Below, in pieces: positions 1,068 to 30,054 of a DNA stretch of 33,136 bases. This DNA is from a bacterium. Its GTDB lineage: Bacteria > Pseudomonadota > Gammaproteobacteria > Nevskiales > OUC007. The stretch lies in NCBI GenBank assembly GCA_018222345.1, contig JAAFAL010000018.1, positions 1-33,136 on the forward strand, read 5' to 3'. Position 1 is the first letter of the stretch. The number at the start of each line of letters is the position of its first letter. The notes under the pieces were generated by a model that was not told where the DNA came from, did no database searches, and saw only the letters and a list, made by a program, of their open reading frames with translations. Position numbers and translations under genes: made by a program.

Positions 1068-3622
1068 CGCGTTGGACTACCCATTCGCTGGTGGTACTTG
1101 CTCTGGCAGTTGCGCTTGTCGGGCCAGTGCATGCGCAGCAGTACGAGTCCGAGGTGCGCGAGTTGGAGTCGGTGCCCGACCAATCGCAGGCGCCACAGTC
1201 CGATGCGGCCCGCATCGAGGCGGTGCAAGGTGACCCCTATGCGCTAGCCCTGACGCTGCGCGAGCTGGCCGCCAAAGCCGTGCGCGAAGAACGCGCTGAC
1301 CTCGCCGCCGAATATCTGCAACGCGCCATCGACCAGAACGCGTTGTCCAGCGTGGTGCAAGACCAGATGAAGCTGACCATGGGCCAGCTTTATCAGCAGA
1401 CCGGTGACTACGACAAAGTCATCCGCGAACTCGGCCCGCGGGTGTCGGCAAATTCTGAAAGCGACGCCGAATTGCGCCTGGCGGTGGCCAATGCGTATGC
1501 CCAAACCGGGCGCTTTCGCCAAGCCCTGCCGCTGGTCAAGTCGGTGTACGACGAGGGCAAGCCCACTGTGGCGGTGATGCAGCTCTACGCCGTGTGCCTG
1601 CTGGAAACCGGCCAACTCAACGCCGCGTCGCCGATTCTCGAGCGCCTGGTGCGCGCCGACCCGAGCAATCGCGAGGGCTGGATACGGCTGGCTGCGGTGC
1701 AGGTTCAGCGGCAAGACTTCGACCGCGCTGCCGCGGTGCTGGAGCTGGCGCATCGCCAGGGCATGCTCACCGAGCCGGCCGACAAGCGAAAGCTGGTGCG
1801 CATGTTCATGCGTGCCGGCGCGCCCTATGAGGCAGCAGCCTTGCTGCAGGGCTGGATTGACGTCGGCATCATGCCGGCCGATGCCGAAACCCTGCGCGTG
1901 CTGGCGCAAGCCTGGAGCACGGCCCGCGAAAGCCGCCGCGCCATTGATGCGCTGGAGCGTTTGAGTTCCGAGGCGCCGTCCGGCGGTGTGTATTTGCAGT
2001 TGGGCCGCTTGTTGATGGAGCAGGACCGCTGGGCGGATGCGTCGGCGGCCTTGTCGCGGGCGTTGCAGTTGGGTGGCAAGGATGTTCCGACCGCGCAAAC
2101 GCTCACCGCGCTTGGCTTGGCGCGCTATCAAAATGCCGACATCGACGGCGCCTTGCGCGCATTTCGCCAAGCTGGGCAGTCGCGCTCGCAGCGCCGCGTG
2201 GCGAACCAATGGATCAGCTATCTGGAATCTGGCAAGGCGCGCGAGCAAGCCTTGGCGGCGGCCAGCCGTGCGGTAGCGCGCAGTGACAACGACCCCGCCA
2301 GCACGCGGTTTTCTGGCGGGCAAACCGTATCGTTGGCCAGCGCAGCGTCGCGCCCGCAAGTCGAGCCTGGCCCGACCCGTGTTGGCGCCGAGCGTGCGGG
2401 CAACGCCAGTGGCAGCTTGCCGCCCTGGACGGGTGGCCTGACCGACACCGCTGGGTTGGAGCGCATCGATGGCCGGCGCCCCGCCAACCCGTTTGCTGAC
2501 GAACAGCCCAAGTACGTCATCGACCAGAACAATTACACCGAATACAGCGGGCTGTTGTCGGCCGGGCATCAGGAGATGCTGCGCCGCTACAACGACTACA
2601 AGATGCAGGTGTATCCCAGCCACCGAACGGTGGCGTACTCCGACGCCATTGAAGCTGCCACCGAGGCCAACGCCAGCCGGGCAAAACTGTTGGAATCGGA
2701 TTCGCTCACCGGTGCGCGACTGGGCTTTCCGTTCCCCGACCCGGCCACCGGTGCCGAGGTGATGTGGAACCACCGCGTGCGCCCGCGCGGCAAGACGCAA
2801 GAAATCTTTTCGGATGAAGCAGTGGTTGAGCCGGACGGTGACTATGACATCCGCCCGCGTACAGAAAACTCGCTGTACATCTACGGCAATCAGGACTACG
2901 CCGAGTCGGTGGATGACAACAACATGTTGTTGTACTATGTCACCTTCGTGAACAACGTGCCGGTGGTCGGCCGCGCCATTGCCGTGGTGCACGAAACCGC
3001 CGACCAGACGCGCGACCGCCGCCGTATCTGGGTGGGCGCAGGCCTAGGGCGCATGCGGCGCATTCCGCCGGTGGGCTTCGACTTTCCGCGGCCAGGCTCG
3101 GACGGCATTGCCTATGTCGATCAAATCGACATGTATAACGGCTCGTTCAACCGCTACGTCTGGCGCCTGCGCGGCCGGCGCGAAATGCTGGTGCCGTACA
3201 ACAGCTACGACATCAACAGCCCCGAACTCAGCTACGAAACGCTGCTGCAGCCCGGTCATCTGAACCAGGACTACGCCCGCTACGAGCGCCACCGCGTATG
3301 GGTGGTGGAGGCCACCGAGCGCGCACCGGCGCGGCACAAGCTGGGCAAGCGGGTGTTTTACGTCGATGAAGATTCGTGGGCAATTGTCATGGTCGATGTC
3401 TATGACCGCGCCGGCAACCTGTTGCAATTGCAAGAAGGTCACATTTATTACGACTGGCAACCGCAGGTGACAATGACGGCGCCGATCGTGCATTACGACT
3501 TCCAGCGCAATGCTTATTACATCAACCGTATGCTCAATCAGTCGATTGGTGTGAAGTTCAACGAGGCCGATTTCAGGCCTGGCGACTTCCGCTCCAGCGT
3601 CGTGCGCACGCGGTTCCGGTAG
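1064..3622 (+). CDS. Periplasmic TPR protein fused to a DUF1329 domain
   Basis: The start is the ATG overlapping the tonB stop; the reading frame runs further upstream but only inside tonB. The 852-residue product begins with a Sec signal peptide (about 1-28, cut after PVHA), without a lipobox. Residues about 60-430 are helical TPR repeats like those of the TPR protein that ends TonB2-type operons, including QWISYLE near the end. From G446 the sequence switches to DUF1329 (PF07044): GNASGSLPPWTGG, then FPFPDPATGAEVMWNHRVRP, and KRVFYVDEDSWAIVMVDVYD near the C-terminus. DUF1329 proteins are normally separate exported proteins of about 450 residues, thought to have a lipid-binding LolA/LolB-like fold. 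The fusion places such a domain in the TonB machinery, which suggests handling of a hydrophobic ligand. Function is inferred, not known. Confidence 0.87.
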   Translation: MTRWTTHSLVVLALAVALVGPVHAQQYESEVRELESVPDQSQAPQSDAARIEAVQGDPYALALTLRELAAKAVREERADLAAEYLQRAIDQNALSSVVQDQMKLTMGQLYQQTGDYDKVIRELGPRVSANSESDAELRLAVANAYAQTGRFRQALPLVKSVYDEGKPTVAVMQLYAVCLLETGQLNAASPILERLVRADPSNREGWIRLAAVQVQRQDFDRAAAVLELAHRQGMLTEPADKRKLVRMFMRAGAPYEAAALLQGWIDVGIMPADAETLRVLAQAWSTARESRRAIDALERLSSEAPSGGVYLQLGRLLMEQDRWADASAALSRALQLGGKDVPTAQTLTALGLARYQNADIDGALRAFRQAGQSRSQRRVANQWISYLESGKAREQALAAASRAVARSDNDPASTRFSGGQTVSLASAASRPQVEPGPTRVGAERAGNASGSLPPWTGGLTDTAGLERIDGRRPANPFADEQPKYVIDQNNYTEYSGLLSAGHQEMLRRYNDYKMQVYPSHRTVAYSDAIEAATEANASRAKLLESDSLTGARLGFPFPDPATGAEVMWNHRVRPRGKTQEIFSDEAVVEPDGDYDIRPRTENSLYIYGNQDYAESVDDNNMLLYYVTFVNNVPVVGRAIAVVHETADQTRDRRRIWVGAGLGRMRRIPPVGFDFPRPGSDGIAYVDQIDMYNGSFNRYVWRLRGRREMLVPYNSYDINSPELSYETLLQPGHLNQDYARYERHRVWVVEATERAPARHKLGKRVFYVDEDSWAIVMVDVYDRAGNLLQLQEGHIYYDWQPQVTMTAPIVHYDFQRNAYYINRMLNQSIGVKFNEADFRPGDFRSSVVRTRFR

Positions 3623-12307: not shown

Positions 12308-15300
12308 ATGATTCACGCGAACTTGGCGGGCGTGCGCCCAGCCATCGTCTTACTTTTTGCGCTGGGGCTTTTTGCCTGCGGCGGAGGTGGCACTGCGACC
12401 TTGCCGCCGACCGGCACGACGCCGCCAGTGACAGCGCCCGATGCGGATGGTGACGGTGTCCCAGATGCCTCGGATGCCTGCCCGGCAACACCGGCCGGCG
12501 CTACCGTAGCCAGCAATGGCTGTGAAATTGATGAAGCCAATGATGCTGACCGAGACGGCGTAGGCGACAGTGCCGACGTGTGCCCCGGCACGCCAACGAG
12601 TAGGCCGGCCGACGCACAAGGTTGTGCCGACACACAGCGCGATGCAGATGACGATGGCATTTCAGACGCAGATGATCAGTGTCCGGCAACGGAACCTGAT
12701 GCAAGTGTGGACACGCAGGGATGTAGCGCAGCACAGCGCGACAGCGATGGTGATGGCGTGGCAGATTCCGCGGACGCATGTCCCGGCACGCTGTTGGGAG
12801 AGACGGTTGACGCCACGGGTTGCAGCCAGGGCCAAATGGACGATGACGCTGATGGTGTCATCAATCGTGTCGATCAATGCGACGCTACGCCAGAGAGTGA
12901 AATGGCCGATGAGTTTGGCTGCAGTGCCAGCCAGCGAGACGCCGATGGTGATGGTGTTAGCGATGCCAATGATTTATGCCCGCTGACCTCACAGGAAGAC
13001 ATCGACAACAATAGTGTGGACGCGCAGGGCTGCGGTGAAAGTCAGCAGGGCGGCGGCGATCCGGATGCCGACGATGATGGTGATGGTGTGCTCAATGGCA
13101 ACGACAGCTGCCCAAACACTCCGCAGTCCGAGATCGATGCGGGTTCAGTCGATGGTGCGGGTTGTGGGCCATCGCAACTCGATGACGACAACGACAACAT
13201 CAGCAATGCGGACGATATCTGCCCCACGACACCAGCAGGGCAGGCCGTCGATGCTGGAGGTTGCTCGGCACAGTTCTGTCAGGCAGAGGCAAGCGCCGCC
13301 TTCGGCGCCTGCCATGCGACCGTCGCAGATACCAGCAATTCCTGCTACAACGATGGCGGCATGCCATGTGCGAGCGATGATGCCGACATTCTGGCTGCAC
13401 GTAGCGCAATGGCCGATCGCGTCAGCGCAGCATGCGGTACCGACACGTCAGCACAGGGCGCCGGCTTTGGCCCAAGCGTGACAACGGCCAACTTGATCGG
13501 ACAATTAGACGCAGCCTGTGTTGGCGAGCCAGCAACATTGGTTGCACGTAGCTACGGCGGGCCACAGGCGCGGCTGCTCAGTGAAGCGCCCACGCCATTG
13601 GCGACAACTTGCTTGACCGCTGCTTACGACACGGCAGATGCGCTGATCCGCGATACGTATGCCGACTACGCGGCTTGCGTGCTAGACCCTGCGTGTAACG
13701 GCACGCAATTGCTGCCAGCAGTTCAGACCAGGCAGACCGAAGGTGCGCAGACGCTGACTGTCATGTGTTCGTCGCCGAGCATGTTGGAAACCCAGGGCTC
13801 AACGCCCGAGATTTTCCTGCAACGTGCCGCTGACCAGGCACGCTGCATGGTGGCTCAGGGCTTGGGAGACACCGGCGGCATTGAACTCAATTGCGGCCCC
13901 GATAACAGCTTGTTTGAACAAGCGACGATTCGCTTGGGTAGCGTTGACGGTGAAGCTGTCTCCAGTGTCGATGACATCCCGCTGGGGGAGGCCGTGCACG
14001 TGACCCTGGACAGCGACGCCTGGGGCACACGCTGCGGCGATGGCAGCGATTACGCATTCGTGATGCGCCTGTCGGAATCGCCTGAGCATTTGGACAAGGC
14101 GATCCTGCACCAGGAAGGTGGCGGCGTTTGCCTGGCAGCGCAAGGTGATTGCGTCACCCGTCCACAAAGCCTGTTCGAAGCGCGTGACAACAATGCCGGC
14201 AACCTGACCAATGGCTATCTGGCCGTTCGCGACGACAACCCGCTACGCGATTGGTCAGCTGTCTTCCAGCCCTACTGCACGCAAGATTTGCATATTGGTG
14301 GAGGCGCCGAAGAAGCGGGTGGCCGGCCGGAAAACGGCGGCACATTATTTCGCTACGGCTCCATTAACGTGAGGGCTTCCACGCAGTTCTATCGCGACCT
14401 GATCTGGCGTCGAGCAAAAGCTGACACGCCAGAAGGCTACAAGCCTGACCAACCGCAAATTATCTACAGCGGTACATCTGCCGGCGCTTATGGCGTGCAG
14501 TACAACCTGCATCATCCATTGGATGAAATGCGCTGGGAGAACACGCTGGCAAGCCCACACGCGGCGTTCACGATAGAAGGCGGTAGCACTGATCTGGCGC
14601 TGCTGCTTGCGACTGTGGGTGAGACTTGGGAGACGCGGCCCTATCAGCCGCCTTACTGTCTCGAGGATCGATGTTCGCTGTCGGTTGTGAACCATCCGCG
14701 GCACGCCAGCCGCATGGGCGTCACGCCGTTCCAGCAAATTCTTGTGACCTCGGCGCAGCACGACAATGTGCAAGAGGGTACGCAGGGGTATCCCGGCCCG
14801 GTTGCGCCACCAGTGCCGGTAGAGGGCCAAGAGCCTCACGATTGGATCAACGCGCTACGCGAACAGTATTGCGAGATTCGCGGCACGCCCAATCTATATT
14901 TCCATCTTGGCGCCAATACCGCCGCGACACACGTGTTCCTGAACAACAACCAGATATTTGACGACACAGTTCGGCGCACGCGCGAACTTTTGGTGAGCGG
15001 CACATCTATGCTCAATCTGCTGGCGGACGTTGCAATGTTCCCCGGCAGCGCCATTGACCGCGTCGAAGACGGCCCAACAATTGAAGGTGTGGAGCCATTC
15101 CCCTGCGACCTGACGCCAATGACTGATGACGGCGTTGACGGTGGGATCGGTGATGCCACCGGTGACGCTGATGGCGATGGCATCGAGAATGCTGATGATA
15201 TTTGTGCTGGGACGTCAGTGGGCAGTGTTGTCGCAACAAATGGTTGCGCCATTGATGCCGGCAACGACGACGATGCTGATGGCGTGGCGAACGACATTGG

Positions 15301-17953
15301 TGGTCCGAGTTTCCGTGCCGACGCCTGCCCGGATACGCCAGCGGGGGAGCTGTCCGACGAATTCGGATGTTCCGCCACGCAGCGCGACACTGATGGTGAC
15401 GGTGTTGTTGACGCCAGTGATCAGTGCCCCGGCACTCTTGAGGACGAGTTTGCGCCGGCCGATGGCTGCCCGGTTGACGGTGTCACGCGGGTGAGTGGCA
15501 CCCAGACGCGTTACAGCTTCAACAACCAGTGCTTGGCCATGCGTTCCGGCATTGACGGTGGCTATGTGACACGCGTCGGTGCGGGCGTTGGCTATTTGAC
15601 TAGCGCTAACATTGCCGACGCCGAACCGTTTTTCATGAAACCCACGGCGCTTGGCAGCTACATGCTCTACAACAGCACTGGCACCTTGATGTCGAGCACA
15701 GGGCCAACCGTTGGCAACACCGTGCTGGATCAAGCCAGCCCAGCAGTGGAGTGGACGCTACGTGGCATCGCCGATGCAACGGTGTACCCGCCATCGCCAA
15801 GTTACGACGCGGAGCCTACTCCGGAACAAGTGACGGCCTATGTTGATTTTGTTGATCCATTGGAGGCTCACGGGGCCTTCAAAGTCACTAACGGTGTTGT
15901 TTCCATGAACTTGGCCGTTGCGCCAAATGGCTCGCTGGTTGTGCAGCCGCAGGATACCGACCCACGCGGTGAAAGCTGGGTGTTCGAGCCGATTGAGAAC
16001 TGTGCGGCCTTTCCCGAAGCCTCAAGCAACGTGGCAGGCGAAGACCCCACCGGAATGGCGCCATCATTCTCGGGCACAACCGAAGATGGCCGCGTGCTGG
16101 GCATGGCCGACGTTCATGTGCATATCAGTGCCACGACCTTCCTGGGCCGCACCGAATGGGGCTCGCCGTTCCATCGCTATGGTGTGACCCACGCGCTGGG
16201 TGATTGCACGCCTTACCACGGCGAACAAGGCACGCAGGACACTGTCGGTGCGTTGTTTTCCGGTGATATGGACGGGCACGACGTCTCCGGTTGGCCAACA
16301 TTCCCGGAATGGCCGGCGCGTGATTTCCTGACCCACGAGGCGATCTACTGGAAATGGATCGAGCGGGCGTGGCAGTCGGGATTGCGGGTGGCAGTCAACG
16401 ATGTGGTCGAAAATGCCACGTTGTGTGAGTTGCAACGTGCTTCGGCACCTGCCGATGAAGCCGCCACGATCGACTGTAACGAAATGAACAACGCCGCCAA
16501 CCAAGTCGGCAGTATGTTTGCGATGCAGGACTACATTGATGCGCAATATGGCGGTCCTGGTCAGGGCTTTTTCCAGATCGTCCGAACACCCGAAGAGGCG
16601 AGAACCGTAGTCGCGAATGGTCAATTGGCCGTTGTCCTGGGTATCGAAATTTCCAACCTGCTGAACTGTCAGATTCGCTACAACAATCCGTTCCGGCTGC
16701 AGCAACCGTTTGAAGAAACTGGTGACCCAGTCGATGGCGGCGTGACCTACGACTGCGCCATGACTGAAACCGGCGCGCCAAATGAAATCCTCACGCAGCT
16801 TCAGCGCCTGTGGGGGTTGGGCATCAGGCAAATCATCTCGATCCATGAATTCGACAATGCATTTGGAGGCAACGGCATATTCGATGGCATGGTGCTGAAC
16901 CTTGGTAATCGCGAGAACAGCGGGGGCAGCAACGGCGCCGATCCGAATGATCCATTCAACGGTAACCCAGCACCTGAGACACCGAGCGGGGAATTCTGGA
17001 CGACCTACGACTGCCCAACCGAAGGCGGTTTGGATAACGATGGTGAACCGTTCTCGGGGTACTTGTGGGGCAGTGCTGGCGGCAGTTCGCAGAGCTTCCT
17101 GACTGCGCCGGATCAATGCACCTTCACTGGCCAGGGCGATCCCGTTGGTACGAGCTTCCGCCCAGGTGGTACAAACCCGTGCTATCCAGATCGTCGCCAG
17201 TGCAATGCGCGCTGGATGACGCCTATCGGCTTGTACTTCTATTCCAAGTTGATGGAGATGGGCTTCATCTTCGACTGGGATCACATGGAATACGAGATGA
17301 AGACCCAGGCGCTGGAGCTGGCCGAGGCACAGAATCCGCCTTATCCATTTGTATCCACTCACGGCACATTCGGGGGCACCTCGCATGAGCAGGCTGGCCG
17401 CGCTTTGGTCAATGGTGGGTTCATGTACCCATCCAACGGATCCAGCCGCGGTTTTCGGAGAGACATGGACGAAACGCTTGGCATCTACCAGCAAGTGTTT
17501 GCTGATGTGCCCGAAGCCGACCGCCCGTTGTTCGGGTTCGGATTCGGGACCGATACCAACGGCTTGTCGGGCCAGACCGGGCCGCGCGGCAATCCACAGC
17601 GGCCGGTTGAGTACCCCTACAGATTGTTCGAGGGCGAGTTGTTTGACGACCTACCCGAATTCAACAACATTGCTGGCTTGGACTTTGAGCAGCCCGCGAC
17701 CAATCCGCCGGAGGGAGACGGTAGAACCTGGCACCAGGACGTGCATGGCAACGCCCACTACGGAATGCTCTCAGGCTTCGTGGAAGAAATCCGCCTGGAA
17801 GGCAGACCTGATCAGATTCGGCACCTGTACAACTCGGCCGAGGTGTTCATCCAAAGTTGGGAGCGCACTCTAGAGTCACAGCAGGGCATTCTGGACAATG
17901 GCTTGGTTCAGCCCGACGGCGTATTGCGGCCAGCGCCGGTCAGCCAACCCTGA
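12308..17953 (+). CDS. Giant lipoprotein: TSP3 repeats, pectinacetylesterase-like and hydrolase-like domains
   Basis: The 1881-residue product starts with a lipoprotein signal (LGLFAC, Cys at 24, followed by Gly, which predicts the outer membrane). Residues about 45-319 are eight thrombospondin type-3 repeats (DxDxDGxxDxxDxCP), which bind calcium. Residues about 320-915 form a pectinacetylesterase/Notum-like esterase: oxyanion motif EGGGVC at 603-608, nucleophile Ser724 in SGTSAG, with Asp819 (QHD) and His875 (THV) as likely triad partners. Three more TSP3 repeats span about 953-1055. Residues 1058-1240 look like a beta-trefoil. From about 1250 a metal-hydrolase-like domain carries DVHVH (about 1268), MQDYIDAQYGGPGQGFFQIV and GTDTNG. 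This last part matches, from memory, large secreted actinobacterial proteins labelled coagulation factor 5/8 type. A GGGGAGG ribosome site precedes the ATG. The substrate is unknown. Confidence 0.88.
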   Translation: MIHANLAGVRPAIVLLFALGLFACGGGGTATLPPTGTTPPVTAPDADGDGVPDASDACPATPAGATVASNGCEIDEANDADRDGVGDSADVCPGTPTSRPADAQGCADTQRDADDDGISDADDQCPATEPDASVDTQGCSAAQRDSDGDGVADSADACPGTLLGETVDATGCSQGQMDDDADGVINRVDQCDATPESEMADEFGCSASQRDADGDGVSDANDLCPLTSQEDIDNNSVDAQGCGESQQGGGDPDADDDGDGVLNGNDSCPNTPQSEIDAGSVDGAGCGPSQLDDDNDNISNADDICPTTPAGQAVDAGGCSAQFCQAEASAAFGACHATVADTSNSCYNDGGMPCASDDADILAARSAMADRVSAACGTDTSAQGAGFGPSVTTANLIGQLDAACVGEPATLVARSYGGPQARLLSEAPTPLATTCLTAAYDTADALIRDTYADYAACVLDPACNGTQLLPAVQTRQTEGAQTLTVMCSSPSMLETQGSTPEIFLQRAADQARCMVAQGLGDTGGIELNCGPDNSLFEQATIRLGSVDGEAVSSVDDIPLGEAVHVTLDSDAWGTRCGDGSDYAFVMRLSESPEHLDKAILHQEGGGVCLAAQGDCVTRPQSLFEARDNNAGNLTNGYLAVRDDNPLRDWSAVFQPYCTQDLHIGGGAEEAGGRPENGGTLFRYGSINVRASTQFYRDLIWRRAKADTPEGYKPDQPQIIYSGTSAGAYGVQYNLHHPLDEMRWENTLASPHAAFTIEGGSTDLALLLATVGETWETRPYQPPYCLEDRCSLSVVNHPRHASRMGVTPFQQILVTSAQHDNVQEGTQGYPGPVAPPVPVEGQEPHDWINALREQYCEIRGTPNLYFHLGANTAATHVFLNNNQIFDDTVRRTRELLVSGTSMLNLLADVAMFPGSAIDRVEDGPTIEGVEPFPCDLTPMTDDGVDGGIGDATGDADGDGIENADDICAGTSVGSVVATNGCAIDAGNDDDADGVANDIGGPSFRADACPDTPAGELSDEFGCSATQRDTDGDGVVDASDQCPGTLEDEFAPADGCPVDGVTRVSGTQTRYSFNNQCLAMRSGIDGGYVTRVGAGVGYLTSANIADAEPFFMKPTALGSYMLYNSTGTLMSSTGPTVGNTVLDQASPAVEWTLRGIADATVYPPSPSYDAEPTPEQVTAYVDFVDPLEAHGAFKVTNGVVSMNLAVAPNGSLVVQPQDTDPRGESWVFEPIENCAAFPEASSNVAGEDPTGMAPSFSGTTEDGRVLGMADVHVHISATTFLGRTEWGSPFHRYGVTHALGDCTPYHGEQGTQDTVGALFSGDMDGHDVSGWPTFPEWPARDFLTHEAIYWKWIERAWQSGLRVAVNDVVENATLCELQRASAPADEAATIDCNEMNNAANQVGSMFAMQDYIDAQYGGPGQGFFQIVRTPEEARTVVANGQLAVVLGIEISNLLNCQIRYNNPFRLQQPFEETGDPVDGGVTYDCAMTETGAPNEILTQLQRLWGLGIRQIISIHEFDNAFGGNGIFDGMVLNLGNRENSGGSNGADPNDPFNGNPAPETPSGEFWTTYDCPTEGGLDNDGEPFSGYLWGSAGGSSQSFLTAPDQCTFTGQGDPVGTSFRPGGTNPCYPDRRQCNARWMTPIGLYFYSKLMEMGFIFDWDHMEYEMKTQALELAEAQNPPYPFVSTHGTFGGTSHEQAGRALVNGGFMYPSNGSSRGFRRDMDETLGIYQQVFADVPEADRPLFGFGFGTDTNGLSGQTGPRGNPQRPVEYPYRLFEGELFDDLPEFNNIAGLDFEQPATNPPEGDGRTWHQDVHGNAHYGMLSGFVEEIRLEGRPDQIRHLYNSAEVFIQSWERTLESQQGILDNGLVQPDGVLRPAPVSQP
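12440..13264 (+). repeat. First block of eight TSP3 calcium-binding repeats
   Basis: The stretch codes for eight repeats of about 28-34 residues, each with an Asp-rich loop, an ADxCP-like centre and a GC end. The repetition is clear in protein but degenerate in DNA, so it is old rather than a recent tandem expansion. Confidence 0.9.
15168..15475 (+). repeat. Second block of three TSP3 repeats
   Basis: Three further Asp-rich repeats separate the esterase-like domain from the C-terminal part. The middle one carries an insertion (IGGPSFRADACP) in its calcium loop. Confidence 0.85.
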
Positions 17954-19320: not shown

Positions 19321-19995
19321 ATGGACACTCGGCCCACCATTTTGCTGGCAGATGACGACGCCGAATTCACGGCCTTGCTTGACGAGTACTTGTGCGGGCA
19401 GGGCTTTGCTGTGCGTGTCGCGGGCGACGGGCAAGCCGCGCTCGCGGCCGCTGCGCCAGAAGCCGGCGTCGAGGTGATCGTGCTCGACGTGATGATGCCC
19501 AAGCTTGATGGCTTCGAGGTGCTACGGCGGCTGCGCTCAGACGGAGTTCACACGCCGGTGTTGATGTTGACCGCCCGGGGCGAGGACATTGATCGCATTC
19601 TCGGCCTGGAGATGGGCGCTGATGATTACTTGCCCAAGCCGGCCAACCCACGGGAATTGGCGGCGAGGCTGCGGGCCATTTTGCGCCGCGGCGCCGGCAC
19701 CAACACCGAGCAGGCATACACCATTGGGCGCTTGCAACTGGATGCCGCCCGTCGTGATGTTCGCATCGATGATGCGCCGGTGGATCTCACGGGTCTGGAA
19801 TTCGAGGTGTTGCGGGTGCTGTGCCAGCACGCCGGGCAGGTGGTGGACAAGGACACGCTTTCGCGCGAGGCCTTGGGCCGCCGCTTGCTGGCGCACGATC
19901 GCAGTGTGGATATGCACATTTCGAACCTGCGCAGCAAATTGGGCAGCGGCGCGATCAAGACCGTGCGCAGCCGCGGCTATCAATTGGTGCGCTGA
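19321..19995 (+). CDS. OmpR/CpxR-type response regulator
   Basis: The 224-residue protein has a receiver domain (about 6-118) with acidic pocket DDD near residue 12, phospho-acceptor Asp56 in VLDVMMP, and the conserved Lys in LPKPAN. A winged-helix DNA-binding domain (about 130-222) follows, ending in KTVRSRGYQLV. Together with the kinase that overlaps its stop by one base and the divergent CpxP-like gene, it forms a Cpx-like envelope stress system. A tandem decamer just upstream may be its binding site. The name cpxR is likely by context but other CpxR/RstA-like paralogues exist. Confidence 0.9.
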   Translation: MDTRPTILLADDDAEFTALLDEYLCGQGFAVRVAGDGQAALAAAAPEAGVEVIVLDVMMPKLDGFEVLRRLRSDGVHTPVLMLTARGEDIDRILGLEMGADDYLPKPANPRELAARLRAILRRGAGTNTEQAYTIGRLQLDAARRDVRIDDAPVDLTGLEFEVLRVLCQHAGQVVDKDTLSREALGRRLLAHDRSVDMHISNLRSKLGSGAIKTVRSRGYQLVR

Positions 19996-21314
19996 TGGCG
20001 TCCAGCAGAATCTTCTGGCGCGTATTGCTGGCGTTTGTGGCCGTTAACGTGCTGACGGTCGCGTTGTTCGTGTTGGTGTTGCGGCCGGTGCTCAGCAGCC
20101 TCGACGATCCGCGCGGCCAATACCGCCCGCTGGCCGAGCAAACCGTTGCGGAGTTTGAGCAGCGCGAGTTGCGCGACTTTGCAGGCTGGCTGCGCCGGAG
20201 CAATCGCCAACAGCGCATGTTTGCCAGCCTGCTTGATGCCGATGGTCGGCCGTTGCTGCGCCGCCTGCCGGGGCCAATGAAAGAATTGCCACCGCAGATT
20301 CTGCGCGACAACTCGGTGCAGCGTTTGCCCGGCGGCGCGCGCTTCATCGCCATCCCGGTTCGTGGGCAGCAGGGTGCTTACCGTTGGGTGGCCATTTTGC
20401 CGCCGAGCGCGTCTCGCAGCGCTGAGCAGCTCGCCGGCCTGGCGCGCATCGCTTTGTCGGTCATTTTGCTCGCCTGCGCGAGTTGGTGGTTGTCGCGCTG
20501 GCTGGTGCGCCCCATTCAACAACTGACTGCGGCCGCGCGCGCCATTGGCGGTGGCGACCTGACGGCCCGGGTGGATGCCCCAACAACCAAGCGCCGCGAT
20601 GAACTTGGCGAACTCGCCCGTGAATTCAACCAAATGGCCGGCCATACGCAGGCTATGGTCGCAGCGCGAAACCGCTTGCTGATCGATGTCTCGCACGAAC
20701 TGCGCTCGCCCCTGGCGCGGCTGACTGTTGCCACTGAATTGGCGCGTGACGGTGACGACCCGGCCGCGGCGCTAGACCGTATCGAACACGAAAGCCAACG
20801 CATGGACAGTTTGATTGGCGAAACCTTGGCCGCGGCACGTGCGCAAGAGCGCGCCGGCGCACTTGAGCCGGTTGATCTGGCAATGTTGCTGCGCGACGCC
20901 GTCGATGACCTGCGGTTTGAGCATGGCGCCGTGTTGCCTCAAGTGAACATTGATGGGCCGGAGCACCTGCAAATCAGCGCGGACGCCATTTTGTTGCGTA
21001 GGGCAATCGACAACGTGTTGCGCAACGCCGCGCGCTACGGCGCCGCGGGCACAAGCATTGATGTCGGCCTGGCGCTGGAGCCGGACAAGGTGGTCATCCA
21101 AGTGCGCGATTTCGGGCCCGGTGTGGCCGCCGACGAGCTGCAGCGCATCTTTCAACCGTTTTATCGCACGGCGACTGCGCGCGATCGTTCCACCGGTGGG
21201 CACGGTATCGGCTTGGCCATTGTTGCCGAAGCTGCCGCCCGGCATGGCGGCCGGGCTTACGCAGAACGCCCTCACGGTGGCGGCCTACGCGTTTGCATCG
21301 TGCTGCCAAACTAA
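19995..21314 (+). CDS. CpxA-like membrane sensor histidine kinase
   Basis: The ATG overlaps the last base of the regulator's stop codon (TGATG), so the pair is translationally coupled; an open frame upstream lies inside the regulator gene. The 439 residues have a membrane helix (about 8-32), a periplasmic domain, a second helix (about 150-172), HAMP (about 175-228), a HisKA domain with His234 in DVSHELRSPLARL, and an ATPase domain with RAIDNVLRNAARYG, RDFGPGV and GHGIGLAI. It should phosphorylate the adjacent regulator in response to envelope stress. The gene shares the cpxRA layout with the divergent LTxxQ protein. Confidence 0.9.
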   Translation: MASSRIFWRVLLAFVAVNVLTVALFVLVLRPVLSSLDDPRGQYRPLAEQTVAEFEQRELRDFAGWLRRSNRQQRMFASLLDADGRPLLRRLPGPMKELPPQILRDNSVQRLPGGARFIAIPVRGQQGAYRWVAILPPSASRSAEQLAGLARIALSVILLACASWWLSRWLVRPIQQLTAAARAIGGGDLTARVDAPTTKRRDELGELAREFNQMAGHTQAMVAARNRLLIDVSHELRSPLARLTVATELARDGDDPAAALDRIEHESQRMDSLIGETLAAARAQERAGALEPVDLAMLLRDAVDDLRFEHGAVLPQVNIDGPEHLQISADAILLRRAIDNVLRNAARYGAAGTSIDVGLALEPDKVVIQVRDFGPGVAADELQRIFQPFYRTATARDRSTGGHGIGLAIVAEAAARHGGRAYAERPHGGGLRVCIVLPN

Positions 21315-21450: not shown

Positions 21451-22656
21451 ATGACCGATGCATTGATTTTCGACGCCGTGCGTACGCCGCGCGGCAAAGG
21501 CAAGAAAGATGGCGCGTTGCACGAAGTAACGCCAGTCCATTTGCTGAAGAACCTGTTTGACGCGGTCAAGGACCGCAACAGCCTGGATACCAGCCGCGTG
21601 GATGACGTCGTGCTGGGTTGCGTGACGCCTGTGGGCGAGCAGGGCGCCGACATTGCACGCACCGCCGTGCTGTATGCCGGCTGGGACGAGTCCGTGGCCG
21701 GCGTGACGCAAAGCCGCTTCTGCGCTTCGGGCCTGGAATCGGTCAACTTGGCGGCCATGAAAGTCATGTCGGGCCAGGAAGATCTGGTCGTCGCCGGCGG
21801 CGTCGAGTCGATGAGCCGCTGGCCCATGGGCAGCGACGGCGGCGCGATGGTGATGGACCCGCGCGTGTCGGCCAAGATGGAGTTCGTGCCGCAAGGTATC
21901 GGCGCCGACATGATTGCCACGCTTGAAGGCTATAGCCGCGACGATGTTGACGCCTACGCGGTCAGTTCACAGCAAAAAGCTGCCAAGGCGCAGGAGGCCG
22001 GTCATTTCTCCGGTTCGATTATCCCGGTGACTGACCTCAACGGCACGGTGGTGCTCGACCGCGACGAGACCATCCGCGGCGGCACAACTACTGATGCGCT
22101 CGGCGACCTCAAACCGTCTTTCGCACAAATGGGCGCCATGGGCTTTGACGCCACCGGAATTCGCAAGTATCCGCAAATCGAAGCCATCAACCACGTGCAT
22201 CACGCTGGCAACAGCTCGGGCATTGTCGATGGTGCGGCGCTGGTGTTGGTTGGTAGCGAGCAGATTGGCAAGGAGTTGGGCCTGAAGGCTCGCGCCCGCA
22301 TTCGCAGCGTGGCAGTCACCGGCACCGACCCGACGATCATGCTCACCGGCCCCGGCCCGGCGTCGATGAAGGCGCTGAAAAAGGCGGGTATGAAACCCGG
22401 CGACATCGACCTGTGGGAAGTCAACGAAGCCTTCGCCGCGGTCGTGCTGCGCGCCATGAAAGATCTGAACCTCGACCCCGACCGCGTGAATGTGAACGGC
22501 GGCGCCATTGCCATGGGCCATCCGCTGGGTGCGACCGGTGCGATTTTGCTGGGCACCGTCATCGACGAGTTGGAGCGCCAGGACAAGCAAACTGCAGCCA
22601 TCACCCTGTGTGTTGGTGGCGGCATGGGCATCGCGACGGTGGTCGAGCGCGTTTAA
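21451..22656 (+). CDS. Acetyl-CoA acyltransferase (thiolase), beta-oxidation type
   Basis: It cleaves 3-ketoacyl-CoA with CoA to acetyl-CoA and a shortened acyl-CoA (or runs in reverse). The 401-residue protein has the three thiolase signatures: nucleophile Cys91 in QSRFCASG, His357 in [11 protein letters not shown], and the second Cys387 in CVGGGMG, plus NEAFAAV. TGAGG lies 7 bases before the ATG. It is separated from the FadB/FadJ-like gene by a four-gene sensory operon instead of sitting in a fadAB or fadIJ pair. I could not decide between FadA- and FadI-type from reading alone. A candidate TetR site lies in its leader. Confidence 0.92.
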
Positions 22657-22759: not shown

Positions 22760-24754
22760 ATGGCAAAGCATAAAATAACGAATAACGGCGCCACGTTGAC
22801 CGGCCACATACGGTCAGTGATGGTGGGGGTCGTGCTGTGCGTAGCGGCGCCTGCGGCTGCGCAAACTGAGTTAGCGGCCGCAGGAGACTTTGGCGACTTA
22901 TCGCTAGATGACCTGCTTGAGATCGAGGTCGTTACGGTTTCGCGGGCGGCTGAGCCGATCGGCAAGGCCGCCGCGGCCATCCACGTCATCACCGCCGACA
23001 TGATCCGCCAAGCAGGTGCGCGCACTATCGCCGAGGCCTTGCGGCTGGCACCTGGCGTGCACGTCGCGCGCAGCAATGCGCAGACCTATTCAATCTCGAT
23101 TCGCGGTTTCGCGAGCACGTCTTCAGACAAGCTTGAAGTGCTGATTGACGGCCGCAGCGCTTATACGCCGCTGTTCTCTGGTGTTTTCTGGGAAAGCTTC
23201 GACACCTATTTGCCCGACATCGAACGCATTGAGATTGTTCGCGGGCCCGGCGCCACACTTTGGGGTGCTAACGCGGTCAATGGCGTGATCAACATTGTCA
23301 CCAAGTCTGCCGTCGATACCGTTGGCTCCGATGTGGCGATGGCGGCTGGTACTGAACTCCGTGGTTTTGCGTCCATGCGTACTGGTCAAACCCTGGGGCC
23401 GGGTGCGATTCGCATGTATGCCAAGGCTTACGAACGTGACGCTTCCGAGCAGGCCAGTGGTGGCGAAGCGCTGGATGGCCAGCGTTTCAGCCAAGCCGGC
23501 CTGCGCGGTGACTGGACGCTTGGTGGTGGGCACAAACTCACAGTGATTGGTGACGTGTTCGGCGTGCGTGGCACCGCTGCCGACCCGATCACCGGCGACC
23601 GCGTCGAGTCTGATGCCGACGGCGGTAACCTCAACCTGCGGTGGTCACGCACGACAACAACGGGTAGCACGTTTAGCGCTGCGGTTTATGGCGAATCGAC
23701 GCGCCGCAGGACACCCAATTTATTTGTGGAAGACCGAGAAACGGTTGATGTGAACATGCAGTTTAACCGCGCGTTTGCTGGTGGCCGCCACGACTTGGTG
23801 GCAGGTGTAGGCTACCGCCGGTCAGAGGACGAAACGGGCGCGCCGCCCGACATTGTCATCTTTGATCCGCAAGACCGAACAGTTGAACAATTCAACGTGT
23901 TTGTGATGGACAAGATCACGCTGAGTGACGCGGCCACGTTGTCGATTGGTTCGAAGTTTGAGCACAATGACTTCACTGGCAACGAGGTGCAGCCTGGCGT
24001 GCGTTTCGGCTACGAGTTGTCCGAGAAAAGCTTCACTTGGGCGTCGGTTTCACGTGCGGTGCGCACGCCCAACCGGCTGGACCAAGACGTGGCAATTTTC
24101 TGCCCGCCTCCGACGGGCTTTCCCGGTGTTTGCGCGCCTGGGCGTTTCCGGATTGGCAATCCCGACTTCGACTCGGAAACCGTGCTGGCCTACGAGGCCG
24201 GGTGGCGTAAGCGCGTGGGCTCACGCGCATCGCTGGATTTGTCGCTGTTTTTCAATGACTACGACGACCTGCGCTCAACGGAAACTCAGCCGCCGCCATT
24301 TGGCAGTTTCGAGAACCGCCTGAGCGGCACTGGCGTCGGTGGAGAACTGGCGCTCGTCACGGAATTGCCGCGCGGTTGGGATGTGCGTGCATGGTATGCG
24401 CACCTGAGCCTGGATATCGAGGCGGATCCTGGCAGCACGGATACCACGACGCCAAGCGATCTTGAAACTAGCTCGCCAGAGCATCAAGTCGGTATGACCA
24501 CACGCTGGAGCGACCAAAGCAACTGGGTTGCACATCTGGCACTGCGATATGTTTCGTCGCTCAAGGCCAGTGACACCCCGGCCTACACCGAAGCCGACTT
24601 CACGCTCATCCGCAAGCTTGGCTCCAAGGCCGAGTTACGCCTGATTGGCCGAAATTTGCTGGACGATGGGCACCGTGAGTTTGGTGAGCCGTCAGCAACC
24701 GCTGGCACGCTGCTTGAGCGATCGGCAGCGCTTGAGTTCGGGCTAAGGTGGTAG
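22760..24754 (+). CDS. TonB-dependent outer-membrane receptor
   Basis: The 664-residue product has a signal peptide (about 1-35, ending PAAAQ), then a short region DLSLDDLLEIEVVTVSR that serves as TonB-box area, a plug domain (IRGFAS, VEVLIDGRSAYTPLF-like and IERIEIVRGPGATLWGANAV) and a barrel ending in an aromatic residue (LEFGLRW). It should import or sense an unknown ligand across the outer membrane, using TonB. The LEIEV type with LIDGRSAYTPLFSG is often found beside YfiR genes, as here. I chose the ATG at 22760 since GGGGGAG precedes it; the frame extends 20 codons upstream. Its stop is 2 bases from the yfiR start, so expression is coupled. Confidence 0.9.
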   Translation: MAKHKITNNGATLTGHIRSVMVGVVLCVAAPAAAQTELAAAGDFGDLSLDDLLEIEVVTVSRAAEPIGKAAAAIHVITADMIRQAGARTIAEALRLAPGVHVARSNAQTYSISIRGFASTSSDKLEVLIDGRSAYTPLFSGVFWESFDTYLPDIERIEIVRGPGATLWGANAVNGVINIVTKSAVDTVGSDVAMAAGTELRGFASMRTGQTLGPGAIRMYAKAYERDASEQASGGEALDGQRFSQAGLRGDWTLGGGHKLTVIGDVFGVRGTAADPITGDRVESDADGGNLNLRWSRTTTTGSTFSAAVYGESTRRRTPNLFVEDRETVDVNMQFNRAFAGGRHDLVAGVGYRRSEDETGAPPDIVIFDPQDRTVEQFNVFVMDKITLSDAATLSIGSKFEHNDFTGNEVQPGVRFGYELSEKSFTWASVSRAVRTPNRLDQDVAIFCPPPTGFPGVCAPGRFRIGNPDFDSETVLAYEAGWRKRVGSRASLDLSLFFNDYDDLRSTETQPPPFGSFENRLSGTGVGGELALVTELPRGWDVRAWYAHLSLDIEADPGSTDTTTPSDLETSSPEHQVGMTTRWSDQSNWVAHLALRYVSSLKASDTPAYTEADFTLIRKLGSKAELRLIGRNLLDDGHREFGEPSATAGTLLERSAALEFGLRW

Positions 24755-24756
24755 GC

Positions 24757-25281
24757 GTGCGTCGCACGAATTGCTTGGTTGTGGCGCTGCTGGTCGCCAT
24801 GGGCTGGCCGGGTAGTGCCGCCTCGGCGCAGTCGGATCTGGAGCGAAAGGTCAAATCGGCTTTCATATTGAATTTCGCCAAATTCATCACATGGCCAGAT
24901 TCGGCATTTAATTCGGCCCGCCAAGCGCTGCGCGTCTGCGCCGATTCATCCGATACCGTGAATAGCCTGGCGCAGGTCATGCAGGGAAAAACGGTTGGCC
25001 AACGCCCGCTAGAAGTGACCCAATTGCCCGCGGACGATTGCCAAATCATTTACGCCACCGGCCTGGAGGCAGCGCAAAGCCAGCAATACCTGAGCGCGCG
25101 CACCTCACCCGGTGTGCTGACCGTGTACGAAACGCCGCAAGCCTTGGATGGCGGCGTAATTCGGTTCTTCGTGCAGGATCGGAAAGTGCGTTTCGAGATC
25201 GACCGGGATGAAGCCGCCGCGGCCAATCTGAGTATCAGCTCCAAGCTGCTGCGGGTGGCCACGATACGCGGAGGCGAATAG
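24757..25281 (+). CDS. YfiR-family periplasmic regulator (DUF4154)
   Basis: The 174-residue product starts with a Sec signal (about 1-24). The mature part has VKSAFILNFAKFITWPDSAF, a C61/C95 pair placed like a disulfide of YfiR, and the closing FEIDRDEAAAANLSISSKLL, typical of DUF4154. In Pseudomonas YfiR binds the periplasmic domain of the cyclase YfiN and inhibits it. Here the next gene is a histidine kinase with a similar sensor domain, so YfiR probably sets that kinase's activity. I chose the GTG at 24757, with AAGG 8 bases before it; another GTG at 24748 overlaps the receptor stop. Confidence 0.88.
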   Translation: MRRTNCLVVALLVAMGWPGSAASAQSDLERKVKSAFILNFAKFITWPDSAFNSARQALRVCADSSDTVNSLAQVMQGKTVGQRPLEVTQLPADDCQIIYATGLEAAQSQQYLSARTSPGVLTVYETPQALDGGVIRFFVQDRKVRFEIDRDEAAAANLSISSKLLRVATIRGGE

Positions 25282-25284
25282 GTC

Positions 25285-26820
25285 GTGTCGGCGTTTCGCA
25301 ATGCGCCTATCCGTCGAAAACTCATTGCTATTTCTACCGTGGCCGCGGCCGCTGGTTTGCTGCTGGCTGCACTGGCGCTAACCGGCTATGCCGTAAAAAA
25401 CCAACTGGATGCGATCGAGAGCACCGTGACATCTGTGGCCAGAGTGCTGGCGCTCAACAGCACCGCTGCTTTGGCGTTTAGCGACGCCGCCTCAGCCAAC
25501 GAGACGCTGTCGGCCGTGCGCACCCTGGACGTCGCGCAAGCGGCTTGTCTGTATGCCATTCCTGGCGGCGAGTTGTTCGCCAACTTCCCGAGTTCGTCGC
25601 AGGCGGATTGCCCGCCATCGGCCGCCGAGTTGTCGCGGCAACGCTCGCTCGCGCAACTGCAGGTTGTTGCCCCCGTAGTTTTGGACGGCGACACCGTCGG
25701 GCGCTTGTGGGTGAATGCATCACTGGCGCCCATGTGGCGCCAAGTGGCCGGTCAAAGCTTGATCTTTTTGCTTGTGCTCATCGCCAGCTTGCTGGCCACC
25801 GTGGCTGTGGTGACCCGGTTGCAGGGCATCATCACCCAGCCGATTGTGGACCTGGCATCCGTTGCACGCCATGTGCGTGACACGCGTGACTACACCCAGC
25901 GAGCAACCAAGGCATCCGACGATGAAACTGGAGAGTTAGTCGATGACTTCAACGCCATGTTGGAGCGTATCGAGGGCGCCTCGCGGCAAACAGAGGCGGC
26001 CAACGTTGAGCTGCAAGCGGCAATGTCTCAACTACAAGACACCCAAACGCAGTTGGTTCAAACTGAAAAGATGGCGTCACTCGGTGGCTTGGTCGCGGGG
26101 GTTGCCCACGAGATCAACACGCCAGTGGGTATTGGCGTGACAGCGGCGTCAACTCTGCAGGCGCGCACGGATGAACTGCGCAGTTTGTATTCCAGCGGGG
26201 CCATGAAGCGCTCCGACCTGGACCAGTTCATGGGCTTTGCCGAGCAATCTGCCAGCATCATCATGAGCAACTTGCGCCGCGCCGCGGATCTAGTGCAAAG
26301 CTTCAAGCAGGTCGCAGTCGATCAGTCGAGTTCAGAACGTCGGGTGTTCGAGCTCAAAGCGTATGTCGAGGAAGTGTTGACCAGTTTGCGGCCGCGGCTG
26401 AAGAAGTCGGCGCACCAGGTCGATGTGGATATTCCCGAGCATCTCATAATCGACTCCTACCCTGGCGCGCTAGCGCAAATCATCACCAACTTGGTGACCA
26501 ACGCCCTGATCCACGCCTTTGACGACGGTGAGGCAGGGACGCTGCGCATCCATGCGCGCCAGCAAGGCGACGAGGTCATGCTGAATTTTTCAGACGATGG
26601 CAAGGGCATCCCCGAGGAGAATCAGGCCAAGATTTTCGACCCTTTCTTCACCACCAAACGTGGTTCAGGCGGGAGCGGCTTGGGCATGCACATTGTTTAT
26701 AACTTGGTTACGCAAATGATGGGTGGCAGCGCCAAACTGGTCAGCGCCCCCGGCCAGGGCACCGAGTTCAAGTTCAGGTTCCCGGCCAAGGCACCCAACG
26801 GAGGGCGACTCGATGGATGA
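25285..26820 (+). CDS. CHASE8-like sensor histidine kinase
   Basis: The 511 residues run: membrane helix (about 13-35), a periplasmic domain of about 115 residues, second helix (about 156-176), HAMP (about 177-230), a coiled coil, HisKA with His275 in GVAHEINTPVG, and an ATPase domain with QIITNLVTNALIHAF, DDGKGI and GSGLGMHIV. The periplasmic part (VARVLALNSTAALAFSD and AACLYAIPGGELFANF) resembles the CHASE8 sensor of the YfiN cyclase, the partner of YfiR. It has two cysteines. The HisKA type resembles kinases that act on regulators with DUF3369. The GTG start is 3 bases past the yfiR stop. The gene ends overlapping the next start by eight bases. Confidence 0.87.
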   Translation: MSAFRNAPIRRKLIAISTVAAAAGLLLAALALTGYAVKNQLDAIESTVTSVARVLALNSTAALAFSDAASANETLSAVRTLDVAQAACLYAIPGGELFANFPSSSQADCPPSAAELSRQRSLAQLQVVAPVVLDGDTVGRLWVNASLAPMWRQVAGQSLIFLLVLIASLLATVAVVTRLQGIITQPIVDLASVARHVRDTRDYTQRATKASDDETGELVDDFNAMLERIEGASRQTEAANVELQAAMSQLQDTQTQLVQTEKMASLGGLVAGVAHEINTPVGIGVTAASTLQARTDELRSLYSSGAMKRSDLDQFMGFAEQSASIIMSNLRRAADLVQSFKQVAVDQSSSERRVFELKAYVEEVLTSLRPRLKKSAHQVDVDIPEHLIIDSYPGALAQIITNLVTNALIHAFDDGEAGTLRIHARQQGDEVMLNFSDDGKGIPEENQAKIFDPFFTTKRGSGGSGLGMHIVYNLVTQMMGGSAKLVSAPGQGTEFKFRFPAKAPNGGRLDG

Positions 26821-27739
26821 TGACATACTGTTTGCCGATGAGGCCCCCGAGGCCGAGCCGGAAGAAGACGCGTGGACGATTCTGATCGTTGATGACGATG
26901 CCGAGGTGCACAGCGTCACCGAATTGGCTCTGGACGGGCTGCGTTTCTCGGGCCGACCTTTGAAGTTTATCCATGCCTATTCCGGCGCCGAGGGCTGCAA
27001 ACAGTTGGAGGCACACCCGGAAACTGCGCTGATGCTGCTTGACGTGGTGATGGAAACTGACCACGCGGGTTTGGATGTCGTCGAACATGTGCGAAACACG
27101 CTCGACAACTCGTTTATTCGCATCATTTTGCGCACTGGCCAGCCCGGCCAGGCGCCGGAGCTCGATGTCATTACCCGCTATGACATCAACGATTACAAGC
27201 AAAAAACCGAACTCACGCGTGAGCGGCTGTTCACGACGATCTACACCAGCCTCGGCGTTTATCGTGACCTGATTACGCTAGAGGCGAACCGGCTTGGTCT
27301 CGAAAAAGTGATCGAGGCGTCGGCGACCGTAATGGAGATCGAATCACTTGAGCGGTTCGCCCAGGGCGTGCTCGAACAACTCACTGCCATCATGTTTTTG
27401 GGCCGCGATGCAGTTGTATTACACGCCTCTGGCGTGGCGGCCAACGCAGAGTCCAACGGGCTCACGGTGTTGGCGGGCACCGGGCTTTACGCCAGCAAAA
27501 CCGGCAGAGACGCGGGCAGTGTTTTGCCAGAAGACGTTATCGACAACATTGTTCACGCCAAAACCGAAGAACATGTCGAGATCGACAGCAAGCGCCTGAT
27601 TGTTGTCAGCCGCGCACCGGGTCATTTGATTGCATTCTTTGTGGAGGCCGACGGTGCGCCCTCCGAGCGGAATCGTCGGCTCATCGAGTTGTTCTGCCGC
27701 AATGTGTCGATTGCTTGGCGGCGTCTGCAAGGCGACTAA
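26813..27739 (+). CDS. REC-DUF3369 response regulator without an output domain
   Basis: The 308-residue protein starts within the kinase gene (ATGGATGA overlap), with GGAGGG about 7 bases upstream. A short acidic N-terminus (1-24) leads to a receiver (about 25-150) with the acidic pair in VDDDAE, Asp77 in LLDVVME, and RTGQPGQAPELDVITRYDIN. Residues about 155-305 are a DUF3369 domain. In known relatives REC-DUF3369 is usually followed by an HD-GYP or other output domain; here the protein stops after DUF3369. The regulator may therefore act by protein contact, or DUF3369 may itself sense or bind a partner. No DNA-binding motif is visible. Confidence 0.85.
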   Translation: MDDDILFADEAPEAEPEEDAWTILIVDDDAEVHSVTELALDGLRFSGRPLKFIHAYSGAEGCKQLEAHPETALMLLDVVMETDHAGLDVVEHVRNTLDNSFIRIILRTGQPGQAPELDVITRYDINDYKQKTELTRERLFTTIYTSLGVYRDLITLEANRLGLEKVIEASATVMEIESLERFAQGVLEQLTAIMFLGRDAVVLHASGVAANAESNGLTVLAGTGLYASKTGRDAGSVLPEDVIDNIVHAKTEEHVEIDSKRLIVVSRAPGHLIAFFVEADGAPSERNRRLIELFCRNVSIAWRRLQGD

Positions 27740-27918: not shown

Positions 27919-30054
27919 ATGACTGCAGTCACACAGGATTTGGATGCCGACGGCATCCTGACGCTCACGATCGATTTGCCCAACCGCTCGATGAATGTCA
28001 TCAACGCGGAATTTGGCGAAGGCTTTGAGCCTGCGTGCAAGCGCGCAATTGAAGACGACGCCGTCAAGGGCATCGTCATCACCTCGGCCAAGGACAGCTT
28101 TGTGGCCGGCGCCGACATCGATATGATCTTCCCGATCACAGATGCCAAGCAGGCCGAGCAAGCCGCCAAGGGTTTGGCCGAGGGGCTGCGCGCATTGGAA
28201 ACCTGCGGCAAGCCGGTTGCAGCGGCCATGAATGGCACGGCGCTGGGCGGTGGGCTGGAGATTTGCCTGGCCTGTCACTACCGCGTGGCCATCGACAACC
28301 CACGCGCCAAAATCGGCCTGCCTGAAGTCAAGCTGGGCTTGTTGCCGGGCGCCGGTGGTACGCAGCGTTTGCCGCGCATGATCGGTATCCAAGCCTCGCT
28401 GCCATTGATCCTGGAAGGCAAGGAACTCGACCCCGCCAAGGCCAAATCGATGGGCATTGTTGACGACCTGGCCAGCGACCGCGACGACATGATGGCCAAG
28501 GCCAAAGCCTGGGTGAAAGCTACCCCGAAGGCGGCGCAGCCGTGGGATCAGAAAGGCTTCAAATATCCGGGCGGCGACGCCAAGAATCCGAAGATGGGCC
28601 AAGTGCTCGCTATCGCGCCATCGATGCTGCGCGACAAAACCAAAGGCAACTACCCGGCGCCGGAGAATATCCTGAGCTGCGTGGTCGAGGGTTCGCTGGT
28701 CGATTTCGATAGCGCCATGACCGTGGAGGCGCGCTACTTCGCCAACTGCGTGGTCAGCCAAGTGTCGAAGAACATGATTGGCACACTGTGGTATCAGCTC
28801 AACGCCATCAAGCGCGGCGCGTCGCGGCCTGATGGATTCGAGCCGTACAAGACCAAGAAGGTCGGCATTTTGGGTGCCGGCATGATGGGCGCGGGCATCG
28901 CCTACGTGAGCGCCAAGGCCGGTATCGACGTTGTGCTCAAGGATGTGTCGCAGCAAGCGGCAGATAAAGGCAAGGCCTATTCCGAGTCGCTACAGGACAA
29001 AGCCATCAAGCGCGGCCGCAGTACGCCGGAGAAAAAGGCTGAATTGCTGGGCCGTATCACTGCCACAGACAGCTACGACGGCATGGCCGACTGCGACCTG
29101 ATCATTGAGGCGGTGTTTGAAGACCGCGGCCTGAAAGCCAAGGTGACGCAGGACACCGAAGCCGTGTTGCCCGAAACGGCCACGTTTGCCTCCAATACCT
29201 CCACGCTGCCTATCACCGGCCTGGCCGAGGCGAGCAAACGCCCCGAGCAATTCATCGGCCTGCATTTCTTCTCGCCGGCCGACAAGATGCCGCTGGTGGA
29301 AATCATCAAGGGCGAACAAACCAACCCCGAGACGCTGGCCAAGGCCTTCGACTACGTGTTGCAGATTCGCAAGACGCCCATCGTGGTCAACGACTCGCGC
29401 GGCTTTTACACCAGCCGCGTGTTCGCCACCTACGTGAACGAAGGCATGGCCATGCTGGCCGAAGGCGTGCCACCCATGGTGATCGAGCGCGCCGGCCTGC
29501 AAGCCGGTATGCCGGTGGGACCGCTGGCACTGCATGACGAAGTGTCGCTGTCACTGTCTTGGCACATCATGGAGCAGACCCGCAAAGACTTCGAAGCCGA
29601 GGGCAAGGAGTTTCCCAAGAGCCCCGGATACGACGTCGTGGACAAAATGGTCAACACGCTGGAGCGGCCAGGCAAGAAAGCTGGCAAAGGCTTTTACGAC
29701 TACCCCGACGGCGGAAAGAAAGCCATCTGGTCCGGTTTGGCCGAGCACTTCCCGCGCAATGATGATTGGGATTTCGACACACTGGTCGAGCGCTTTGGCA
29801 CCATCCAGGCCAACGAAACGGCTCGCTGTATGGAAGAGGACGTGGTCGAGACTGTGGCCGATGCCAACATCGGCAGCATCTTCGGTTGGGGCTTTGCCCC
29901 GCATGAAGGCGGCACGCTGCAATACATCAACGCGCGTGGCCTGCAAGCCTTTGTCGATCAGTGCAAGGCATTTGCCAAAGACTACGGCCCGCGCTTCGAG
30001 CCGGCGGAGCTGTTGGTGAAGATGGCGGCCGATGGCAAGCAATTTGAAGCCTAA
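27919..30054 (+). CDS. FadB/FadJ-type enoyl-CoA hydratase and 3-hydroxyacyl-CoA dehydrogenase
   Basis: It carries out the second and third steps of beta-oxidation. The N-terminal crotonase domain (about 1-190) has the oxyanion motif AGADIDM and both catalytic glutamates (E114 in [10 protein letters not shown]136 in GLPEVKLG). The dehydrogenase starts near residue 310 with the NAD fold [13 protein letters not shown], and the catalytic His lies in [18 protein letters not shown]-terminal helical domains follow. With 711 residues it is nearer FadJ (714) than FadB (729), but no fadI or fadA gene is adjacent. The ATG has no clear ribosome site. A candidate operator lies upstream, and a REP-like element follows 15 bases after the stop. 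Confidence 0.93.

Follow-up and report, generated by a model that had tools for sequence, protein, structure and literature searches.

A TonB-dependent receptor, YfiR and a CHASE8 histidine kinase as a candidate outer-membrane signalling cassette in a gammaproteobacterium

In the window, i.e., the whole analysed stretch of 33,136 nucleotides from a bacterium of the Nevskiales, genes for a TonB-dependent receptor, a periplasmic YfiR-like protein, a membrane histidine kinase and a response regulator closely follow one another, and the question is whether they form one signalling chain, in which a YfiR switch, as known from YfiBNR, acts on a two-component system and is fed by the receptor. YfiR–YfiN cores with sensor-kinase outputs, as well as variants without YfiB, have already been reported, the outer-membrane input of YfiR systems lacking YfiB being left open (Malone et al., 2012; PMC3375315).

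The locus and the encoded proteins

The four genes were found in the predicted order, strand and spacing: the receptor and YfiR genes are separated by 2 bases, the YfiR and kinase genes by 3 bases, and the kinase and regulator genes overlap by 8 bases. The genes and the positions discussed below are as follows.

22760..24754, + strand: TonB-dependent receptor gene (664 aa, plug and barrel, without STN domain; TOL_0244-like)
24757..25281, + strand: gene for the YfiR-like periplasmic protein (DUF4154; signal peptide, 174 aa, GTG start)
24880..24882, + strand: YfiR Lys42, coupled to kinase residues 133–134
24988..24990, + strand: YfiR Lys78, charge-paired with kinase Asp136
25285..26820, + strand: membrane histidine kinase gene (511 aa, GTG start; TM1, CHASE8, TM2, HAMP, HisKA, HATPase_c)
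25417..25713, + strand: CHASE8 periplasmic sensor domain, kinase residues 45–143 (Pfam profile)
25465..25479, + strand: AALAF motif, kinase residues 61–65, corresponding to the YfiR-binding AAVVF motif of YfiN
25690..25692, + strand: kinase Asp136, charge-paired with YfiR Lys78
26813..27739, + strand: REC-DUF3369 response regulator gene (308 aa)
27041..27043, + strand: regulator Asp77, predicted phospho-acceptor, within LLDVVM

Shine–Dalgarno-like GGAGG stretches precede the kinase and regulator starts, and no Rfam elements were found in the window. The cassette is flanked by beta-oxidation genes, a thiolase gene (21451–22656) before it and a 3-hydroxyacyl-CoA dehydrogenase/enoyl-CoA hydratase gene (27919–30054) after it, the latter followed by thioesterase, CoA-transferase III and ECH genes; the flanking genes differ in relatives, and thus the four-gene cassette looks inserted. 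With these two neighbours, no gene for YfiB (an OmpA-like lipoprotein) is directly adjacent to the operon. Elsewhere in the window, a protein of 1881 aa that carries thrombospondin type 3 repeats (12308–17953) is encoded shortly upstream of a separate regulator–kinase pair (19321–21314), and the ORF at 863–3622 joins TPR repeats and DUF1329, which may be one protein or may reflect a wrong start. The named relatives closest to the window YfiR include Gammaproteobacteria of the Salinisphaerales.

According to Pfam, the receptor comprises a plug (3.7e-22) and a barrel (2.9e-29), with no STN signalling domain found (the plug match begins at residue 69), and YfiR belongs to DUF4154 (YfiR/HmsC-like; 2.5e-33, 115.6 bits against the cut-off of 24.9). 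The original prediction saw a resemblance to CHASE8 in the kinase sensor, and the profile confirms it: PF17152 matches residues 45–143 at 8.7e-15, with 55.3 bits against the cut-off of 27, and the sensor is thus not an unrelated domain. The kinase also matches HAMP (1.1e-8) and HATPase_c (2.2e-27), and the regulator matches DUF3369 (4.5e-33). Although HisKA of the kinase (19.4 bits) and REC of the regulator (22.9 bits) remain below the Pfam cut-offs, the residues that define a two-component pair are present, namely, the H-box AHEINTP (274–280), the N-box, and the G1 and G2 boxes of the kinase, and Asp77 in LLDVVM of the regulator, at the REC phospho-Asp position.

A fold model of YfiR fused to the kinase through an in-frame TAG has good domains (pLDDT 91.6), with a pTM of 0.63 and no contacts reported; its YfiR part matches the solved YfiR structure 4zhu (Z 16.3, rmsd 2.6 over 138 residues). 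The kinase sensor, whose model alone has a pLDDT of 93.4, resembles PAS/Cache-like periplasmic sensors in structure comparison (Z about 10.6–13.6), and the Phe of its AALAF motif is invariant in 33 aligned sensors. Among the structural neighbours is 4u64, a domain of the LapD type (Z 10.6), and the LapD–LapG system is similar in that a membrane signal protein carries a PAS-like output domain on which a periplasmic protein docks. The two systems involve different protein families and differ in the direction of control.

The best NCBIfam matches (release 20) are NF053590 (TOL_0244) for the receptor, NF053591 (TOL_0243) for YfiR, and NF053592 (HK_near_YfiR_like) for the kinase sensor. These models are matched by all sampled sequences (31/31 receptors, 19/19 YfiR, 33/33 sensors), while the window proteins score about 10% under the cut-offs (584.5/645, 112.3/125 and 175.5/194, respectively). 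The receptor–YfiR–kinase neighbourhood is already known to NCBIfam curators; the models name it without function and leave the regulator uncovered.

Conservation of the cassette and diversity of its outputs

Of 321 gammaproteobacterial genomes, 48 have DUF4154, 63 have a CHASE8 match that exceeds the cut-off, and 44 have both, with CHASE8 lying within 3 kb of 55 out of 80 DUF4154 matches. For the collection scan, set A1 (19 YfiR) was too diverse, and set A2 was used. In the fetched neighbourhoods of 281 distinct YfiR genes, a receptor gene is directly upstream in 179 and a CHASE8 protein directly downstream in 238, the median YfiR–CHASE8 intergenic distance being -4 nt; receptors make up only two out of 402 genes at least four positions away. 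No receptor is directly upstream of the remaining 102 YfiR genes, some of which have a downstream receptor or are found at the end of a contig; 43 of the 281 have no adjacent CHASE8. The same order occurs in Acidobacteriota, Verrucomicrobiota, Desulfobacterota, Alphaproteobacteria and Gammaproteobacteria, and also on plasmids of Sphingobium and Caballeronia. Thus, the gene order, whose loss in relatives would have spoken against the original prediction, is kept across phyla, and the receptor–YfiR–CHASE8 cassette is real and widespread.

Several loci depart from this arrangement. One genome (G115) has several receptor–YfiR pairs, one of them tandem, with no CHASE8 protein nearby (L041, L043, L045), and in L309, L315, L322 and L336, YfiR is accompanied by a CHASE8 hybrid kinase with a receptor-like gene downstream of the kinase rather than upstream. 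The plasmid pSRL1 of Sphingobium indicum B90A (L406), typed as mobilizable, carries a cassette of receptor, YfiR and an ATP-binding protein. An apparent receptor–YfiR fusion in L405 was rejected, as the receptor there is frame-shifted and its reading frame continues into YfiR. Large open frames around some YfiR matches also suggested fusions with neighbours; in L031 and L033, YfiR and the genes beside it are separate.

Behind the same front end we see kinases, hybrid kinases followed by REC-GGDEF-EAL proteins, and GGDEF-EAL proteins. Of the 238 downstream CHASE8 proteins, 181 are kinases and 37 are GGDEF proteins, the other 20 being truncated or unassigned, and at least 14 switches between kinase and GGDEF outputs are placed on the YfiR+CHASE8 tree. 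In one locus (L170), a single protein of 1664 aa combines CHASE8, HK, REC, GGDEF and EAL behind the receptor and YfiR. Moreover, L349 (3121–5088), L354 (2602–4503) and L356 (2473–5067) encode natural fusions of YfiR with a histidine kinase; the two parts are connected by a long coiled coil plus a membrane helix, and no CHASE8 match was found in these proteins. The cassette looks like a widespread means of carrying an outer-membrane signal inward, with different outputs attached.

The form seen in the window, with REC-DUF3369 after the kinase, is rarer: in the whole-genome set, REC-DUF3369 follows the kinase in only eight out of 44 kinase loci. All eight loci of this form, the window included, have the window's order, and five of them have an added REC-kinase gene. 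No catalytic or DNA-binding output domain was found in the 308-aa regulator. The host genome encodes DUF4154 in a single gene and DUF3369 in three, and has 25 matches to GGDEF; judging by their sequences, a further REC-DUF3369 protein (contig C6) comes after a PAS kinase belonging to the same class, and a REC-DUF3369 protein on contig C156 has an HD-GYP-like tail, which the window regulator lacks. The domain combination REC-DUF3369-HD-GYP has been described before (PMC4212101, PMC9756655).

Testing YfiR for co-evolution with the sensor and the receptor

Paired coupling analysis was applied to 234 non-redundant YfiR–CHASE8 pairs. Inter-protein couplings appear at overall ranks 6, 16, 22, 27, 30 and 33, and connect YfiR Lys42, Lys78, Leu85 and C-terminal residues 162–168 with kinase residues 52–74 and 127–136; the coupling of YfiR Ala168, which partly reflects end gaps, was set aside. 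The mean of the top 20 couplings is 1.03, compared with 0.70–0.78 after random re-pairing and 0.74–0.84 after re-pairing within clades, and 179 kinase-only pairs yield the same pattern. The distances among YfiR proteins are likewise correlated with those among the CHASE8 sensors (r about 0.72–0.75), and in 84 complete operons this correlation is 0.72, versus 0.12 for YfiR with the kinase core that belongs to the sensor. In this 84-row subset the YfiR–CHASE8 coupling loses strength, and re-pairing is exceeded by the kinase-core control as well, hence kinship contributes to the coupling.

The charges at positions corresponding to YfiR Lys78 and kinase Asp136 are opposite in 130 out of 138 charged cases (109 +/-, 21 -/+, 5 ++, 3 --). 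There are only approximately five independent supported pairs of charge swaps (3.4 the same way, 0 opposite; sign-test median p 0.25), and the Fisher p is thus inflated by kinship. Cys61 and Cys95 are strongly coupled within the window YfiR.

The coupled regions can be compared with published data, as genetics maps the YfiN contact to the C-terminus of YfiR and the AAVVF motif of YfiN (PMC3375315), and the first helix, with the loop that follows, belongs to the conserved surface of YfiR (PMC4655355). Given that YfiR co-evolves with CHASE8 and not with the kinase core, and that the sensor has the AALAF motif, docking of YfiR on the kinase sensor is very probable. Hence the pairing of YfiR with this kinase stands, and none of the three outcomes that would have spoken against the original prediction was observed.

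The receptor was surveyed in 146 related genomes, with matches above 400 bits (n = 31) taken as the subfamily. These TOL_0244-type receptors directly precede yfiR in 27 out of 31 cases, and two of the four exceptions lie less than 200 bases from a contig start; by comparison, the 19 next-best receptors listed (145–250 bits) include not one that directly precedes yfiR. At the same time, no receptor–YfiR covariation above background was observed: the distance correlation is 0.17, with a partial correlation of -0.08 given CHASE8. Couplings of the receptor plug block with YfiR above random re-pairing were attributed to kinship, as the YfiR–kinase core negative control shows a similar excess. The receptor is linked to YfiR by gene order and distribution, and covariation gives no support for a contact between the two.

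Proposed mechanism and alternatives

The window system shares with the YfiR–YfiN core a periplasmic YfiR and a CHASE8(PAS)-HAMP membrane protein with an AAVVF-type motif. It differs in the output, GGDEF in YfiBNR and a HisKA/HATPase_c kinase with REC-DUF3369 here, and in the outer-membrane partner, which here is a TonB-dependent receptor. FecA–FecR and FpvA also have a TonB-dependent receptor as the signal input, as proposed here; however, the window receptor lacks STN, so that it is not FecA/FpvA-like, and the scan of the adjacent genes showed neither a FecR nor a sigma-factor gene. In the literature searched, TonB-dependent receptors are nowhere described as forming a system with YfiR, YfiN or CHASE8, and the text of Malone et al. 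(2012; PMC3375315) does not mention TonB. Thus, the new part is the receptor as a constant partner, while the idea of a kinase output dates from 2012.

Taken as a whole, we consider it fairly probable that in this operon a two-component system is controlled by a YfiR switch, which the receptor feeds. It is strongly supported at the sequence level that periplasmic YfiR would bind the CHASE8 domain via the surface used on YfiN. By analogy with YfiN, bound YfiR would keep the kinase in a fixed state, which is probably the off state. The near-exclusive linkage of the receptor subfamily to yfiR suggests the receptor as the input, whose ligand or occupied state may change YfiR and hence the kinase, and the motifs and gene order suggest that the kinase phosphorylates Asp77 of the regulator. 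REC-DUF3369 would then probably act by contacting another protein; the c-di-GMP network is a possible target, since elsewhere the same front end drives GGDEF-EAL directly or via REC-GGDEF-EAL.

The absence of receptor–YfiR covariation also fits a scheme in which import of the ligand is the receptor's sole task, and YfiR or CHASE8 senses it free in the periplasm, with no contact between the receptor and YfiR. Such transport-coupled sensing is comparable to that of PfeA with PfeS. It agrees with the YfiR fold, related to periplasmic substrate-binding proteins (e.g., 3lft and 5z6v, Z 10.6–11.7), and with the resemblance of CHASE8 to ligand-binding PAS/Cache domains, e.g., those of CitA and DctB. 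However, YfiR–CHASE8 co-evolution means that the sensor reads YfiR, which is needless if CHASE8 alone senses a small molecule, and import by itself leaves the near-confinement of the receptor subfamily to yfiR loci unexplained; we regard this scheme as a serious possibility, though not the most probable one.

It is rather unlikely that YfiR senses redox state or envelope stress for the kinase, the receptor gene being a mere regulated neighbour or an output. YfiR from P. aeruginosa does respond to disulphide loss (PMC3375315, PMC4655355), the coupled C61–C95 pair is kept in the window YfiR, and some YfiR–CHASE8 loci have no receptor nearby; but direct precedence of yfiR by 27 out of 31 subfamily receptors, and persistence of the order across phyla differing in flanking genes and output domains, argue against this reading. 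That an ordinary two-component system merely happens to lie beside an unrelated receptor and yfiR is hardly credible: the four genes do stand amid beta-oxidation genes without a clear link to them, but the same order across phyla and plasmids, together with the co-evolution, contradicts a chance neighbourhood.

Beyond this locus, a TonB-dependent receptor, YfiR and CHASE8 might constitute a general, undescribed outer-membrane signalling route across phyla, parallel to FecA–FecR, that interchangeably drives histidine kinases or c-di-GMP enzymes and in which YfiR reads receptor occupancy directly; we put this forward tentatively, with less than even confidence. The near one-to-one linkage of the receptor subfamily and yfiR provides a concrete candidate input for YfiR systems lacking YfiB, the residues of the YfiR–sensor interface are testable, and one cassette driving both kinases and c-di-GMP enzymes is a natural experiment on modular signalling.
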